A stretch of DNA of 50,273 bases, taken from positions 7,544 through 57,816 of the forward strand of contig JARGOD010000008.1 of the NCBI GenBank assembly GCA_029210205.1, in the 5' to 3' direction. Positions within the stretch are counted from its first letter, which is position 1. The number at the start of each line of letters is the position of its first letter. Shown here piece after piece: positions 21,628 through 26,680 of the stretch. Under the pieces are notes generated by a model. That model was given only the letters and a program-made list of their open reading frames with translations, was not told the DNA's origin and did not search any database. The stretch comes from Verrucomicrobiales bacterium. GTDB taxonomy: Bacteria; Verrucomicrobiota; Verrucomicrobiia; Verrucomicrobiales; DEV007. Position numbers and translations under genes: made by a program.

Positions 21628-22042
21628 GCCTCTCATTTACCCGCATTGTAGATCACCGGCATACGGCCCTTCCACTTCTCCCAAAGAGAATCGTCGGTGA
21701 TCAATGCGTTCATGAAGCTCGCAACATTGATTCGACTCGTTTTTCCCGGGTCAAAAATCGCACTTCGGGACGGTGAAGCAAAAAGATCGTAGTCGGAAGC
21801 GGACTCATCGTTGATCAAAGTATCCGGACGAACGACGACCCACTCGACCCCAGGATGATCTTGACCAATCTTCACTCGAAGAAAATCAGCGGCTGCTTCG
21901 TTATCTCTATGAGGTGGGATAGCGATTCGCAACGCAGCAATAATGAATCTTTGGGCGAGTGATATAGGCTCGTCTAGATCACGGTTGCTATTCCCGGCTG
22001 TGTTCATGAGCACGAAACGGATTGGTGTCTTGAACGGCTTTG

Positions 22043-22050
22043 ATAAGTAG
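22043..22050. repeat. Target-site duplication, left copy
   Basis: ATAAGTAG lies directly outside the left terminal inverted repeat and is identical to 24650-24657. Eight base pairs is the usual duplication size for IS1595-family elements. The perfect match suggests a recent insertion. Confidence 0.95.
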
Positions 22051-22076
22051 GGGAATTATATACTTCGCTAACCCAT
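22051..22076 (+). repeat. Left terminal inverted repeat of the transposon
   Basis: Twenty-six bases that are the exact reverse complement of 24624-24649, beginning GGGAATTATATACTTC. This is the likely transposase binding and cleavage end. Confidence 0.95.
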
Positions 22077-22133
22077 GCCGTTGGGTGAATGTTTTTCCAA
22101 AAAAGAATTTGATTAACCCAACGCTTAGGGTTA
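22071..22133 (+). promoter_or_regulatory. Two small hairpins between the left end and the transposase gene
   Basis: ACCCA (22071-22075) pairs with TGGGT (22082-22086), and TAACCC (22114-22119) pairs with GGGTTA (22128-22133). The second lies 9 bp before the transposase ATG. They share the TAACCC core with the terminal repeat, so they could be subterminal transposase sites or RNA structures limiting read-through expression. The role is inferred. Confidence 0.4.
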
Positions 22134-22142
22134 GCCTTCTTT

Positions 22143-23054
22143 ATGAAGGACGAAATCAACGTTTTTGAGTTTTTGCAGCAGTTCCCCGATGAAGACGCTT
22201 GCGAAAGCTACATCGTAAAGAAACGCTGGCCCACTGGCATTAGCTGCCCTCACTGCAAGAATCACAACATTTACAGATTGGAGAATCAAAAGCGATTCAA
22301 ATGTGGCGGTTGTCGCAAACAATTTTCTTGCAGAACAAATTCCGTTCTTGCAGAAAGTAAGGTAAAATTGCAAAAATGGATGATGGCGGTTTGGATTTTA
22401 ACATCGCACCGCAAAGGGATTTCTAGCGTTCAGCTCTCAAAAACCCTTGGTGTGACTCAAAAAACAGCTTGGTTTCTCGGACACCGGATTCGGGAAGCAA
22501 TCTCTCAGCGCCGGTCTTTGTTCGATGGAGTGGTGGAAGTGGACGAAACCTTCATCGGTGGGAAAGAGAAGAACAAACATGCCTCAAAAAAGCTAAGACA
22601 AGGACGTGGAGCTGTAGGAAAAAAGCCAGTAGTCGGGATCAAGAATCGAAACGGTCAGGTAAAAGCGGCAGTGATTCCCGACGTTAAAGGTTCAACGCTC
22701 CACTGTAGAATTCACGGCGGAGTTGAACGCGGCGCGACCGTTTACACCGATGAACACTTGGGTTACTCCGGCCTTTCAGCGTTCTACAATCACGAGTTTG
22801 TAAAGCACGGCGCCGGTGAATATGTGAAGGGAATGGCCTCCACTAACGGCATCGAATCATTTTGGTCTCTCTTAAAGCGCGGCTACATAGGGATTTACCA
22901 CAAAATGAGTTTCAAACATCTTCAAAAATACGTCGATGAATTTTGCTTTCGCCAGAACAGCCGTGAAGGTGTCGCGATTGATGTTATCGGTGACGTGTTC
23001 TTTCGGTCCAATAATAAGCGTCTAACTTACAAACGATTGATCCATGCCTCCTAA
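22143..23054 (+). CDS. IS1595-family (ISXO2-like) DDE transposase
   Basis: A 303-residue transposase. An N-terminal zinc ribbon is formed by CPHC (Cys35, Cys38) and CGGC (Cys54, Cys57). A helix-turn-helix-like segment, SSVQLSKTLGVTQKTAWFLG, follows. The catalytic core shows VVEVDETFIGGKEK with Asp134, VYTDEHLGYSGL with Asp203, and STNGIESFWSLLKRGYIG with Asn235 and Glu238; the last block ending in a GIYH-type motif is diagnostic of this family. The length and motif order look complete, so the enzyme is probably active. Its last 11 nt overlap the methyltransferase start. No Shine-Dalgarno sequence is visible before its ATG. Confidence 0.93.
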   Translation: MKDEINVFEFLQQFPDEDACESYIVKKRWPTGISCPHCKNHNIYRLENQKRFKCGGCRKQFSCRTNSVLAESKVKLQKWMMAVWILTSHRKGISSVQLSKTLGVTQKTAWFLGHRIREAISQRRSLFDGVVEVDETFIGGKEKNKHASKKLRQGRGAVGKKPVVGIKNRNGQVKAAVIPDVKGSTLHCRIHGGVERGATVYTDEHLGYSGLSAFYNHEFVKHGAGEYVKGMASTNGIESFWSLLKRGYIGIYHKMSFKHLQKYVDEFCFRQNSREGVAIDVIGDVFFRSNNKRLTYKRLIHAS

Positions 23055-23916
23055 AACTGCCCCAACATTAGAGCCAATCGACCTGCCATTCGACGAAGCA
23101 ATGGATGCGTTGCTAGATGCCCCGAAAGAAAAAGAGGTTGTTCCTTTTCCCGTTCAAAAAGACAGCAAGATTTCACCGTGGCTTGGGAAGATCCATTTCG
23201 GTGATTGCATCGGTATAATGAATCAGATCCCCGAAGAATCGGTGGATCTAGTTGTGACCTCGCCGCCATACAACATCAAGAACAGTAGTGGCAACGGGCT
23301 AAAAAACGGAAGCGGCGGCAAGTGGGAAAATGCCGCTTTGATCAAAGGTTACAACGTGCATGATGATAACATGCCTCATGAAAAATACGTTGAGTGGCAA
23401 CGGGATTGCTTAAGGGCAATGATGCGGGTTTTGAAAAACGATGGCGCGATTTTTTATAATCATAAATGGCGAGTTCAGAATGGTCTGCTTCAAGATCGTT
23501 CTGACATTCTTGAGGGGTTCCCTGTCCGCCAGATAATTATCTGGAAGCGAAAGGGCGGAATCAATTTCAACCCCGGTTATTTTTTGCCGACCTACGAAGT
23601 TATTTACGTCATCACTAAACCTGATTTCAAGTTGGCAAAAGGCGCTAACAAAATGGGCGACGTGTGGGAGATCCCACAAACGAGAGGCATCGACCACCCC
23701 GCCCCTTTTCCCGTCGAGCTGGCTCAGCGGTGCTGTGAGGCGAGCGATGGCCCTATCGTTCTCGATCCATTTATGGGTTCAGGTTCTACTGCTATCGCGG
23801 CATCAATGTTAGGCAAGCAGTGGATTGGTATTGATATTTCTCTGGATTATTGTGAACTGGCTAAATCCCGAATTGAGGAGCATAGCTACAAAGCAAAAAT
23901 CCAGAAACATGAGTAG
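23044..23916 (+). CDS. Beta-class site-specific DNA methyltransferase of a mobile R-M system
   Basis: A 290-residue amino-group DNA methyltransferase. Catalytic motif IV is VTSPPYNI (residues 71-78) and the AdoMet-binding motif I is LDPFMGSGSTAIAA (240-253). The order IV before I, with a target-recognition region between, defines the beta class. The SPPY form is more typical of N4-cytosine methylation than of N6-adenine. It should protect sites cut by the endonuclease encoded next. Its ATG lies inside the transposase gene (11-nt overlap), so translation may be coupled. An N-terminal extension of about 45 residues precedes the core. It could act as a solitary methylase if the nuclease were dead, but the nuclease looks intact. 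Confidence 0.9.
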   Translation: MPPKTAPTLEPIDLPFDEAMDALLDAPKEKEVVPFPVQKDSKISPWLGKIHFGDCIGIMNQIPEESVDLVVTSPPYNIKNSSGNGLKNGSGGKWENAALIKGYNVHDDNMPHEKYVEWQRDCLRAMMRVLKNDGAIFYNHKWRVQNGLLQDRSDILEGFPVRQIIIWKRKGGINFNPGYFLPTYEVIYVITKPDFKLAKGANKMGDVWEIPQTRGIDHPAPFPVELAQRCCEASDGPIVLDPFMGSGSTAIAASMLGKQWIGIDISLDYCELAKSRIEEHSYKAKIQKHE

Positions 23917-24619
23917 TGCGAGCCGACCACCAAAATCATCCACCGCCACATTTGCTAAAATTAAAGCAATCTTAGGCGAACACGAAATTCCCGAAGAAAA
24001 GACCTACAACGGATCAGGGGGGCCGGGCCGCTTGCTGGAGGATTTGGTAGGAGTTGCCGAAAACAACCACGACTCACCTGATTTGGATGATTGGGAATTG
24101 AAATTTCATGGTGGTTCTGGAAATCCTGTTACTCTGTTTCACAAAGAGCCTGAGCCTCGGGGGATCATGCGGTTACTCGTTCATGAGCACGGGTGGGAAG
24201 ACGCTCTTGGCAGAATCAGTTTGCGACACACCTTTGGCGGAAAATCAGACAGAGGGTTCTATGTCGTGAATGAGGATGACCGCGTTGTGATTCGCCACGA
24301 AACTGTTGATACGGTTGTCCCGTTCTGGCGACACGACACATTGCTGAATATTCTTGGCGGAAAGTTAAGACGGCTGATTTTAGTAGAGGGCCAGACTCAC
24401 AAAAACCCGAGGCGCGTAACCTACAAATCCGCAAAAGCATTTTGGGATTTTCGGATTAGAGATTTTTGCGAGGCTATGGAAAAAGGCGATGCCTTAATTG
24501 ATTTTGACGCTCGAACAAAATTAGGACCAGGAACAGCGTTGAGAAACCACGGGACCAAAATCAGGGTGAAAGTTGAAAATCTTTCAAAATTTTATCATTC
24601 AAGTAAAACGATAACCTAG
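23909..24619 (+). CDS. MvaI/BcnI-like type II restriction endonuclease
   Basis: A 236-residue protein from the ATG at 23909, which overlaps the methyltransferase stop by 8 nt. The segment YNGSGGPGRLLEDLVGV is followed by PDLDDWELKFHGG, a PD-(D/E)xK arrangement with Asp58, Glu63 and Lys65 as likely metal-binding and catalytic residues. This pattern, the overall length and pairing with an SPPY methylase match the MvaI/BcnI family as I know it. Those enzymes act as monomers on CCWGG or CCSGG. A basic C-terminal half follows. The family call comes from recall rather than a search. Its stop lies only 4 bp before the right inverted repeat, so it fills the element to its end. Confidence 0.75.
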   Translation: MSSASRPPKSSTATFAKIKAILGEHEIPEEKTYNGSGGPGRLLEDLVGVAENNHDSPDLDDWELKFHGGSGNPVTLFHKEPEPRGIMRLLVHEHGWEDALGRISLRHTFGGKSDRGFYVVNEDDRVVIRHETVDTVVPFWRHDTLLNILGGKLRRLILVEGQTHKNPRRVTYKSAKAFWDFRIRDFCEAMEKGDALIDFDARTKLGPGTALRNHGTKIRVKVENLSKFYHSSKTIT

Positions 24620-24623
24620 CGGA

Positions 24624-24649
24624 ATGGGTTAGCGAAGTATATAATTCCC
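24624..24649 (-). repeat. Right terminal inverted repeat of the transposon
   Basis: Exact reverse complement of 22051-22076, ending in ATAATTCCC on the plus strand. Confidence 0.95.
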
Positions 24650-24657
24650 ATAAGTAG
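24650..24657. repeat. Target-site duplication, right copy
   Basis: ATAAGTAG, identical to 22043-22050, directly outside the right inverted repeat. In the reconstructed gene one copy encodes part of the Ala-Tyr-Leu seam. Confidence 0.95.
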
Positions 24658-25054
24658 GCATTACATAGTCGAGCAATCGCATCAGCAACGAGCATGCGAG
24701 GATGACCAAAGATCCCGCTGAAGCTCAGCCGGTGTCCTAGGCAGGAAGCAATCGCATCACATCCTTGTAATAGAGAAGTGAGTTCGATCTCACTCAAGTC
24801 AAGCAAGCTCGCCTCGATAACCTCTAAGTGAGGATGATCAGAGAGTGATCGAGGGAGACTTCCGCACGACCGAACGACTGCCCTCACGGAATGCCCTTTT
24901 TCCAAGAGTTGTTGAACGAGAAGGATTCCAGTCGCGCCATTTGCTCCGACGATTAGGAGAGTCATTCGCAAAGAGTAATGGCGATATCTCAGGACATCAC
25001 CTTATTTCGAACACTGACCTCAGGCCTACTGACCAAATCGGCCTAAACCCAACT

Positions 25055-26680
25055 TTACTGACCAAATTCCACGACCACGCGAAATCCATAATCGTCGTCG
25101 CGGCGATCTCGTTCATCAAAGTCCCGCAACTCACTCCGGAAATCGAGTTCGGAAAAGTTATCCCAGGCACCGCCGCGGATCACTTTGAAGAGGCGGCCTT
25201 TTTCATCCCTGGATTCTTTGAGTGAAGCATTCTCCTTGAGCATTTCGCTCGAATTCAGCTCAGGCCGATAGTCATCTTCGAGCCACTCCCATACATTGCC
25301 GGCCAAATCAAAGAATCCGTGATCGTTCGCATCATAACTGCCGACACGGGCAGTGCGTTCCGCCCCGTCATCATATTCGATTCCACCAATGACTGACTTG
25401 CTCCAGTCTCCCGGTAGATTTGATATAGCTTGGAGATCCCAGAAATTCCCCGCATTGGTTGGCGGTGGCCATTCTTCTCCCCACGGAAATCGCTCAGACC
25501 CGACTGCAGCAGACCACTCCACATCTCGAGGAAGTCGGTAGTTGTTTCCATCATGCGCAGAGAGCCAGGTCGCGAATTGTTTCGCTTCATCCCAGGTGAC
25601 GCACACGACGGGATGCTCGTCACTTTGCAGAAATCCCGGCTCTTCCCATGATGCCTTTTCACGATGGACCCAGTTGGTCGTGTAGCCGCCACCCGGCTTC
25701 TCCTTCACCTCAAAAAGGTGAGCTCCGCCTTTCTGAATGTAATCCGTAGCTTCAGTAAAAGCCCGAAAGTCTTTCACTCTCGTTTCATGAGTCGACATTA
25801 GAACTCCGGGGCGTCCTGGAACGGGACAAAATTTCATCCCAAGAGAATTGATCCAAGGTCGGTCTTTGGTCGCTTCTTTTGGAGAATTGATGACTCCGGG
25901 CAGGCCGGCGCCCTCTTCCACAAACTGGAAATTACCGTAAAACTTGCTGTTAAACCATGGCTCCTGCTCTCCTCCCGTAAGACTGGCCACATCTCCGCCT
26001 ACCGCCTTAAAGACTTCCTCGAAAGGACGACCGGGTTTTGGTAAGTGCTTAAGCAAAGCCGCCGTGTAAGGGCTGTTTTTTCCCTCCCCATCATCAGCAA
26101 CATCATCAGGGGAGGTCGAAAAAGCGATGAACATGCCCTGTGGCGCGCCTCCCGGCATCGCCAGTCCACCGGAAGAAGTGCTCCTGCTCCCGCGCCATGA
26201 TCGGGAAAAGGGATCATTCCGACAACAGTCCAGAATCAGAAGGTTCAACCCCGCCCCGGCTGTCTCCAGCCCTTCCATGATCAAATTCATCGAAAGCGTC
26301 TCGTCGGGCACCTCGTAGTCCCGTGTCATCTCCGCATCGACAGGAATTAGAAAATTTTCTCCCTTCATCTGCACGCCATGCCCAGCGAAGAAAACGAGCG
26401 CCACGGCTTCGGGATCCGGGTCAGCAGGCAAACTGTCGACGAATTCCCGAAGCGCCCGCTTCATTGATTTCAAGTCAGCATCGACCCGGAAAGTGACATC
26501 AAAATCAAGTCGGCGAAGCAACCCCGCCATGTCAGTGGCGTCGTTTGCGGGATTGCTGAGAGAGCGCGCGTGAACGTATTCGTTATTTCCGATCACCAAT
26601 GCTTTTTTCGGAGAGTCTCCTCCGATAACAAGACCGGAAAGCATGAAATAGATCAGGGAGTGGCAAAATAGAGCTCTCAT
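25055..26680 (-). CDS. Exported caspase-like (p20/metacaspase) and FGE-sulfatase-domain fusion protein
   Basis: A 541-residue protein with an N-terminal hydrophobic signal. A caspase-fold peptidase domain follows at residues 25-255: KKALVIGNNEY is the first strand, VFFAGHGVQ carries catalytic His101, and LLILDCCRNDPF carries the nucleophile, most likely Cys153 by analogy with D-x-C-R-N in orthocaspases. Residues 275-541 form a formylglycine-generating-enzyme-like fold (INSLGMKFCPVPGRPGV, HPVVCVTWDEAKQFATWLS, YRLPRDVEWSAA, DLAGNVWEWLED, VIRGGAW). The place where true FGE has its catalytic cysteines reads FRSELRDF, so this half is probably a binding module. Caspase-FGE fusions are recurrent in PVC bacteria; their targets are unknown. 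Confidence 0.88.
   Translation of the reverse strand: MRALFCHSLIYFMLSGLVIGGDSPKKALVIGNNEYVHARSLSNPANDATDMAGLLRRLDFDVTFRVDADLKSMKRALREFVDSLPADPDPEAVALVFFAGHGVQMKGENFLIPVDAEMTRDYEVPDETLSMNLIMEGLETAGAGLNLLILDCCRNDPFSRSWRGSRSTSSGGLAMPGGAPQGMFIAFSTSPDDVADDGEGKNSPYTAALLKHLPKPGRPFEEVFKAVGGDVASLTGGEQEPWFNSKFYGNFQFVEEGAGLPGVINSPKEATKDRPWINSLGMKFCPVPGRPGVLMSTHETRVKDFRAFTEATDYIQKGGAHLFEVKEKPGGGYTTNWVHREKASWEEPGFLQSDEHPVVCVTWDEAKQFATWLSAHDGNNYRLPRDVEWSAAVGSERFPWGEEWPPPTNAGNFWDLQAISNLPGDWSKSVIGGIEYDDGAERTARVGSYDANDHGFFDLAGNVWEWLEDDYRPELNSSEMLKENASLKESRDEKGRLFKVIRGGAWDNFSELDFRSELRDFDERDRRDDDYGFRVVVEFGQ

Follow-up and report, generated by a model that had tools for sequence, protein, structure and literature searches.

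How do restriction-modification (R-M) systems travel between bacteria? The question is a long-standing one, and systems have been described on plasmids, on phages, on transposons and between copies of insertion sequences (ISs). It is raised again by a locus in a 50,273-nt stretch of a Verrucomicrobiales genome (contig JARGOD010000008.1; hereafter the window), where a methyltransferase gene and a restriction endonuclease gene lie beside a transposase gene between the ends of one small IS1595-type element. A first-pass annotation had described this element as an IS1595 transposon carrying a full R-M pair as cargo, and its anatomy, its empty site and the recurrence of the three genes with their own ends at other loci support that description. 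We consider it highly probable that the element is an IS1595 transporter IS (tIS) in which the transposase, methyltransferase and endonuclease genes form one overlapping array, and that it is a long-lived mobile Type II R-M unit. The features of the locus, in window coordinates, are:

22051-24649, 2599 bp: IS1595-type element, with transposase, methyltransferase and endonuclease genes between its ends
22043-22050: left copy of the 8-bp target duplication, ATAAGTAG
22051-22076, plus strand: left terminal inverted repeat, 26 bp, perfect
22143-23054, plus strand: IS1595-family transposase, 303 amino acids, with a zinc ribbon and a DDE domain
23044-23916, plus strand: DNA methyltransferase, 290 amino acids (PF01555, N6_N4_Mtase; E-value 6.4e-40)
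23909-24619, plus strand: MvaI/BcnI-family restriction endonuclease, 236 amino acids (PF15515, E-value 1.5e-26)
24624-24649, minus strand: right terminal inverted repeat, 26 bp, perfect
24650-24657: right copy of the 8-bp target duplication, ATAAGTAG
24650-24971, minus strand: 5' part of the interrupted host gene
21633-22050, minus strand: 3' part of the interrupted host gene

The two ends of the element match as inverted repeats at 26 of 26 bp and both outer flanks are ATAAGTAG, which bears out the perfect repeats and 8-bp duplication reported in the first-pass annotation. Assuming uniform bases, the chance expectation of perfect 26-bp inverted pairs is ~3e-7 for a sequence of the window's size. 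Excising the element in silico, together with one duplication copy, restored a single minus-strand frame of 243 codons with a TTG start. The N-terminal 105 residues encoded by this host gene were searched in the genus and had matches in 14 of 32 other genomes; eight of the matches were strong (E-values 8e-38 to 2e-21) and fell within open frames of 208-285 codons, and the other six were weak. The rejoined frame and the genus matches in open frames indicate a clean insertion into a host gene. By eye, the gene product looks like a putative NAD(P)-binding reductase.

The transposase is encoded by a complete frame and, consistent with its earlier description as an intact-looking IS1595 transposase, its product matched PF12762 (DDE_Tnp_IS1595; 1.4e-42), the zinc ribbon PF12760 (5.6e-13) and the NCBIfam model NF033547 (IS1595; 202 bits, cut-off 75). 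In an alignment of 15 transposases, the zinc-ribbon residues C35, C38, C54 and C57 were invariant, as were D203 and E238, and D134 was nearly so; we take D134, D203 and E238 to be the candidate acidic catalytic triad. The ends of IS1595-family elements start with GG; the inverted repeats of the window element do so too, and its target duplication is 8 bp long, as is usual for the family.

According to profile searches, the solved chain closest to the methyltransferase is a DNA cytosine-N4 methyltransferase (6e-45). The motif TSPPY, which we take to be typical of N4-cytosine methyltransferases, was present in all seven aligned methyltransferases, and DPFMGSG in six of seven (L088 has I for M). 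The enzyme is probably of the N4-cytosine type. The solved chains closest to the endonuclease are R.MvaI (1e-28) and R.BcnI (4e-16), and its D..ExK region, presumably the active site, aligns to R.MvaI. The endonuclease most likely starts at the ATG at 23909, which gives overlaps of 11 bp and 8 bp between successive genes. Its stop codon is 4 bp short of the right repeat, such that the PF01555 and PF15515 genes fill the right side of the element as first proposed. With start codons chosen by script, the 11-bp transposase-methyltransferase overlap was also found in L089, L090, L091 and L092, and a 4-bp overlap in L033, L036, L103, L108 and L124 (L numbers denote loci retrieved in the searches below). 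The PF01555 gene both adjoins and overlaps the endonuclease gene, an adjacency kept in relatives, and from this we infer that the methyltransferase is cognate to the endonuclease. The 26-bp ends and a single target duplication enclose both cargo genes, which is the arrangement of a tIS.

The same trio was found elsewhere. A scan of viral contigs with the transposase yielded 74 loci, at seven of which the transposase is followed by homologues of both cargo proteins (L015, L016, L017, which is the same element as L016, L033, L036, L084 and L088). A scan of genomes with an alignment of the endonuclease yielded 31 loci; directly upstream, the transposase match was full-length at 10, partial at 3 and lacking at 18. 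Overall, 11 loci, the window included, have the trio together with inverted repeats (19-26 of 26 bp) and an 8/8 duplication. Two are on viral contigs (L036 and L124, the latter from a methyltransferase scan of viral contigs) and eight are genomic:

L089: Parvularculaceae
L090: Olavius spirochete symbiont
L091: Planctomycetes
L092: Nitrosomonas
L100: Flavipsychrobacter
L101: Acidimicrobiaceae
L102: Caldilineaceae
L108: Omnitrophota

By record title, the eight represent seven phyla: Pseudomonadota, Spirochaetota, Planctomycetota, Bacteroidota, Actinomycetota, Chloroflexota and Omnitrophota. The host labels are stronger for L089, L092, L102 and L108, which are on contigs of 98-167 kb, and weaker for L090 (3.3 kb), L101 (4.4 kb), L100 (5.7 kb) and L091 (8.1 kb) because these are short contigs of metagenome-assembled genomes (MAGs). 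Searching for the three-gene element elsewhere was a check proposed in the first-pass annotation; its presence with matching ends at 10 further loci (8 genomic, 2 viral) confirms that the observation is broader than was seen at first, the trio recurring in distantly related bacteria.

Both repeats were present without a full duplication at L016, at L033 (6/8) and, with weaker repeats, at L015 and L084; at L103 and L105 the contig ends at the right repeat. In the target duplications, A+T makes up 91 of 104 bases across 13 sites, and the G+C content of the elements roughly tracks that of the flanking DNA. Several rows were dropped before counting: L017, L031 and L041, which carry the same elements as L016, L030 and L039; L077, which repeats L076 on the same contig; L120-L123, L125, L127 and L128, which are contigs of earlier loci; L118 and L119, which have no match to the three proteins; L107, at a contig edge; and L130, whose transposase is cut by a contig edge. 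The distant outgroup rows L114, L116, L117, L132, L143, L156 and L157 are outside the close counts. L055 and L048 have right ends only, recognised by eye, with truncated or unclear left parts, and neither was counted as a complete element. Viral contigs searched with the window endonuclease alone gave eight pattern matches with no relative among them. In plasmids, the endonuclease retrieved 13 records, every one below 60% identity, and the transposase seven, of which four were inspected and none had R-M genes annotated beside the transposase; the L033 methyltransferase retrieved one record, an Acinetobacter plasmid.

These loci bear directly on the possibility that the R-M pair is a chance passenger, recently acquired by one IS copy and no stable part of the element. 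No close endonuclease was found in 94 relatives, one of which had a 28% match. Such an absence would be expected of a chance passenger, as would the single copy in the element's own MAG and the exchange of cargo among related IS1595 elements (both described below). The same search did not reveal the outcome named beforehand as refuting the transposon, namely R-M genes at this locus in relatives lacking the transposase and ends. The trio, however, occurs in the same order and orientation, with matching ends, at 10 further loci, two deep transposase clades retain it, and the distances of its genes are correlated. We therefore rejected the chance-passenger explanation, which is largely refuted by the recurrence of the trio and which we consider very unlikely.

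The clades and correlations were obtained as follows. Trees were quick ones with support from the Shimodaira-Hasegawa-like approximate likelihood ratio test (SH-aLRT) only, and the 60-row transposase tree was built from a subset of the fetched transposases that we selected. In this tree, the 18 MvaI-type carriers formed two groups, of 8 and 10, each with an SH-aLRT of 100, and the carrier label changed twice as against a shuffled mean of 15.8. Mantel correlations were calculated over 16 full trios. Transposase and endonuclease distances correlated with r = 0.89 overall (0.48 and 0.62 within clades), transposase and methyltransferase distances with 0.77 (0.80 and 0.82), and methyltransferase and endonuclease distances with 0.73 (0.63 and 0.71); p was < 0.024 for all correlations. 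For L102/L105, the ratio of nonsynonymous to synonymous substitution rates (dN/dS) was 0.075 for the transposase, 0.070 for the methyltransferase and 0.092 for the endonuclease; synonymous sites were saturated in six of the eight pairs tried.

A comparison based on the transposase only covered all 88 loci found by transposase (74 viral, 14 genomic). At eight, the transposase was nearer the MvaI-type clades than other groups, and at seven of the eight (six of them distinct) it is accompanied by homologues of the methyltransferase and endonuclease genes. Among the seven, L084 and L088 have transposase fragments only (L088: 52% over 144 residues) and L015 and L088 have a broken endonuclease. The eighth, L024, is equidistant (47% vs 49%) and, at a contig end, encodes an EcoRI-like endonuclease with a methyltransferase. 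The other transposase-found loci had at most 56% identity to the MvaI-type clades. Together, the clades, the distance correlations, the dN/dS values and the transposase-found loci indicate that the three genes have long been inherited together and have spread horizontally. They form an old lineage with two transposase clades in several phyla, each with a diverged version of the R-M pair.

Signs of mobility were seen in the Caldilineaceae MAG that contains L105. Additional contigs of this MAG contain ends of the element, and most of them stop ~140 bp inside the repeat, the pattern expected from a multi-copy repeat. The outer flanks represented four distinct right-end sites and three left-end sites, including two exact duplication pairs, CTTGTCAT (C240/C183) and TTTCCATG (C224/C5). 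The four right-end sites imply at least four insertions of these ends in this genome. Multi-copy, assembly-breaking elements of this kind may hide R-M systems in short-read genomes. We also considered that the window element might be a composite transposon and rejected this: it has one transposase gene and one full copy, and two further matches in its genome are its own ends matching each other.

Several observations weigh against a long-lived mobile R-M unit. First, visible copy numbers are mostly low. The window element had one full match in its own genome (a MAG of 195 contigs, 86.6% complete), and the endonuclease profile matched once in 15 of 20 carrier genomes, twice in four and five times in that of L105. 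In the latter, a single copy is read through, and the TTTCCATG copy diverges from the reference after ~245 bp. Second, both cargo families also live outside the transposon, through loss of the transposase or separate origin. Of the 26 close genomic endonuclease loci, 13 have no transposase match (the 18 noted above minus L118, L119, L114, L116 and L117); within these 13, L107 leaves its contig on the left and shows a right end, and upstream of L109 the contig extends for only ~0.5 kb. Loci without a transposase are scattered among the carriers in the cargo trees, and transposase status is only weakly clustered on the endonuclease tree (10 changes vs a shuffled mean of 13.1, with values as low in 29 of 500). 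Similarly, 43 of 53 viral loci found with the methyltransferase have no transposase match. Third, the endonuclease of L100 is truncated though the ends and duplication are intact, and those of L015 and L088 are broken too. Finally, the R-M activity and specificity of the element rest on homology. Beside these points, we noted that L095 and L113, two loci without a transposase, have an endonuclease in the window clade and a methyltransferase among the distant outgroup rows, as if the R-M pair had been reassorted.

Some of these data would suit an immobile element in which the R-M pair is retained for defence and the transposon parts are relics. In addition to the single copy in the window's genome and the 13 of 26 close genomic loci that have no transposase match, six of 36 close loci have R-M genes beside a transposase fragment that is clear of a contig edge (L084, L088, L097, L099, L106 and L126). 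By contrast, the transposase frame of the window is complete, its ends and duplication are perfect, and the transposase genes of L102/L105 are under strong constraint. We consider immobility very unlikely.

The pattern of decay raises another possibility: that the cargo is mainly a mobile methyltransferase, with an epigenetic or anti-restriction role, and that the endonuclease is dispensable. The endonuclease was truncated or split in five of 36 close loci (L015, L088, L100, L113 and L115), and the methyltransferase was broken in none of 35 (L107 leaves its contig). Moreover, two sister elements, L037 and L030, encode a methyltransferase with no recognised nuclease. The endonuclease is nevertheless intact in 31 of the 36 loci and under purifying selection in L102/L105 (dN/dS 0.09), and an active R-M system also predicts the asymmetry: the methyltransferase is expected to outlast the endonuclease because the reverse loss, a broken methyltransferase with a live endonuclease, would be lethal. 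We consider a mainly methyltransferase cargo unlikely. The asymmetry fits an endonuclease that is active in cells, and no more than that; the numbers are small, and its dependence on five broken endonucleases is a further point against reading it as support for a working R-M unit.

In the mechanism we propose for the mobile R-M unit, the transposase would cut and join at the 26-bp ends and insert the element into A+T-rich 8-bp targets, by the chemistry of its family. The methyltransferase, encoded by the first of the R-M genes and predicted to be N4-cytosine specific, would mark host DNA, and the MvaI/BcnI-type endonuclease would cut unmarked DNA, as their homologues suggest. The three genes move together, so every insertion would deliver a complete defence system that is potentially also an addiction module. 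Selection for R-M may help the transposon to persist, and transposition may in turn spread the pair. By analogy, addiction, in which loss is punished, is plausible for this Type II system. A 2.6-kb unit of transposase, methyltransferase and endonuclease is close to the smallest possible self-moving R-M system and would make the idea of selfish, mobile R-M systems directly testable in one cloned fragment.

Related IS1595 elements differ in their cargo. The 74 viral loci include 25 distinct elements that have repeats and whose duplication matches at 7 or more bases. At least eight of these carry a recognised or homologous DNA methyltransferase (L029, L030, L035, L036, L037, L038, L042 and L058), and at least five of the eight a recognised or homologous nuclease partner (L029, L036, L038, L042 and L058), the cargo of L042 and L058 being assigned by BLAST to the proteins of L038. 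These numbers are lower bounds because small cargo open reading frames (ORFs) were scanned in part; the methyltransferase-cargo counts are raw and uncalibrated against equal lengths of flanking DNA. The remaining 17 of the 25 either lack cargo or carry genes that were unrecognised or of other kinds, among them KilA-N, P63C, a trypsin-like protein and an NYN domain. The two methyltransferase carriers without a recognised nuclease are alike outside their cargo. L030:4947-7188 and L037:4947-7256 are 85% identical over the left 1000 bp and 93% identical over the right 155 bp, and their cargo (C5 vs N6/N4 methyltransferase) does not align. These alignments indicate a swap of the cargo cassette within the same transposon shell.

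Other R-M-like and defence cargo was found on this kind of element. L055:4791-7159 has an IS1595 transposase followed by a methyltransferase and RE_Eco47II, with the right end recognised by eye, and appears from these matches to be a second R-M pair, unrelated to the MvaI type. L026:2995-7012 has perfect ends, no duplication, and genes for an HsdM-like methyltransferase and an HsdS-like specificity subunit; no restriction subunit was recognised between its ends. L025:4902-7058 is an IS1595 element with an 8/8 duplication and cargo matching the anti-phage protein BstA (E-value 1e-118), and the cargo of L050 has a weaker match to SspD. L019, with repeats but no duplication or one end, carries a C5 methyltransferase and an unrecognised protein. 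In the window's phylum, a close transposase occurred in eight of 387 genomes, its own included, and nine of the 14 loci fetched have ends and an 8/8 duplication. The cargo scan of these nine covered L179 and L182, which are from one genome and carry an EcoRI-type methylase. We think it rather more probable than not that a dedicated R-M transposon lineage, with the R-M pair as a core, co-inherited component and spread across phyla, sits within a wider IS1595 subgroup that acts as an exchangeable shell, repeatedly taking up unrelated R-M systems, methyltransferases and anti-phage genes.

Two of these sister elements merit separate description. L182:1196-3087, with the transposase on the minus strand, has perfect 26-bp ends and an 8/8 duplication around its EcoRI-type methylase and a GmrSD/HNH nuclease. 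The unrecognised protein of L019 (6872-7612) has a 56% identical counterpart in L035 (3034-3771); the proteins are of 245-246 amino acids, and their genes overlap that of the C5 methyltransferase inside the ends. The protein is possibly an undescribed restriction enzyme. A structure model of the L035 protein was too poor for use (predicted local distance difference test score 34.5), and a scan of viral contigs with the protein matched only itself. The sister elements are thus a potential source of undescribed methyltransferases and nucleases, this partner of a C5 methyltransferase being an example.

Tn7-like transposons have several transposition genes and many cargo genes; by contrast, one transposase gene and two R-M genes fill the 2.6 kb of the window element. 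The window endonuclease is homologous to those of the R.MvaI and R.BcnI Type II systems but, unlike in these, is joined to a transposase gene and IS ends. The comparisons that follow draw on parts of the cited sources. The likeness to Tn7-like transposons lies in defence genes borne by a transposon: R-M systems occurred in 947 of the Tn7-like transposons in PMC8649781 and were the commonest defence cargo there. Closer in kind are tISCpe8 and MTnSag1/tISSag10, mobilizable elements of the IS1595 type that have 25-bp ends and are flanked by 8-bp repeats (PMC5704250). They share with the window element an IS1595-type transposase, inverted ends, an 8-bp duplication and a passenger gene; they differ in being mobilizable, and the part of the PMC5704250 account available gives no R-M genes for them. 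tISCpe8 is a lincomycin-resistance element according to a title cited in that paper. The tIS passengers in PMC11891212 include regulators (ISNha5, IS1595 family), methyltransferases (IS220, IS1380 family) and resistance genes. IS220 resembles the window element in being an IS with a methyltransferase passenger, but it belongs to the IS1380 family, and the relevant portion of PMC11891212 mentions neither an endonuclease nor the kind of methyltransferase.

R-M mobility by way of ISs has also been reported. A plasmid with the PaeR7I R-M system joined the chromosome mostly via chromosomal copies of IS1 or IS5, and the same paper cites R-M genes flanked by IS copies (PMC3031569). As in the window, IS transposition is the means of movement; unlike there, the window R-M genes sit inside a single IS-like unit. 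According to PMC4176335, which cites the PaeR7I work and one other study, there are reports of R-M genes moving inside insertion sequences or transposons. Toxin-antitoxin pairs in Tn3 transposons (PMC7157771) are likewise an addiction-type gene pair that is a recurrent part of a transposon, although they are not R-M systems and Tn3 is not IS1595. IS1 and site-specific DNA methyltransferase genes are over-represented as neighbours (PMC9208149), and methyltransferase duplicates have been suggested to result from transposon insertion (PMC10333322). The sections of PMC6211672 and PMC9296519 consulted contain nothing on R-M systems as IS cargo. In titles and abstract openings, we found no earlier report of an R-M system as cargo of an IS or of IS1595; an earlier description of the trio is possible because this search left ISfinder, TnPedia, REBASE and the main IS1595 paper uncovered. 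IS1595 passengers and transposon-borne R-M systems are each known, and the apparent novelty is a transporter IS with a complete Type II R-M cargo that is conserved and widespread.

Finally, minor features of the locus are:

22071-22086, plus strand: small hairpin inside the left end, terminator-like, with a T-rich tail
22113-22134: second small hairpin, between the first one and the start of the transposase gene

At the position of the first hairpin, six of seven left ends in the window clade also fold into one (z-scores, -0.2 to -2.8), that of L089 weakly, and the left end of L091 does not. This hairpin could block read-through transcription from outside; the evidence is weak and was kept out of the argument. 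No sigma-70-like promoter was found upstream of the transposase. The region contained three sigma-70-like sites vs a shuffled mean of 3.7, the best of which (11/12) is at 23431-23460, within the methyltransferase gene. Adjoining the interrupted host gene, a minus-strand ORF of 541 amino acids (25055-26680) looks, by eye, like a caspase-type peptidase fused to a formylglycine-enzyme-like domain.

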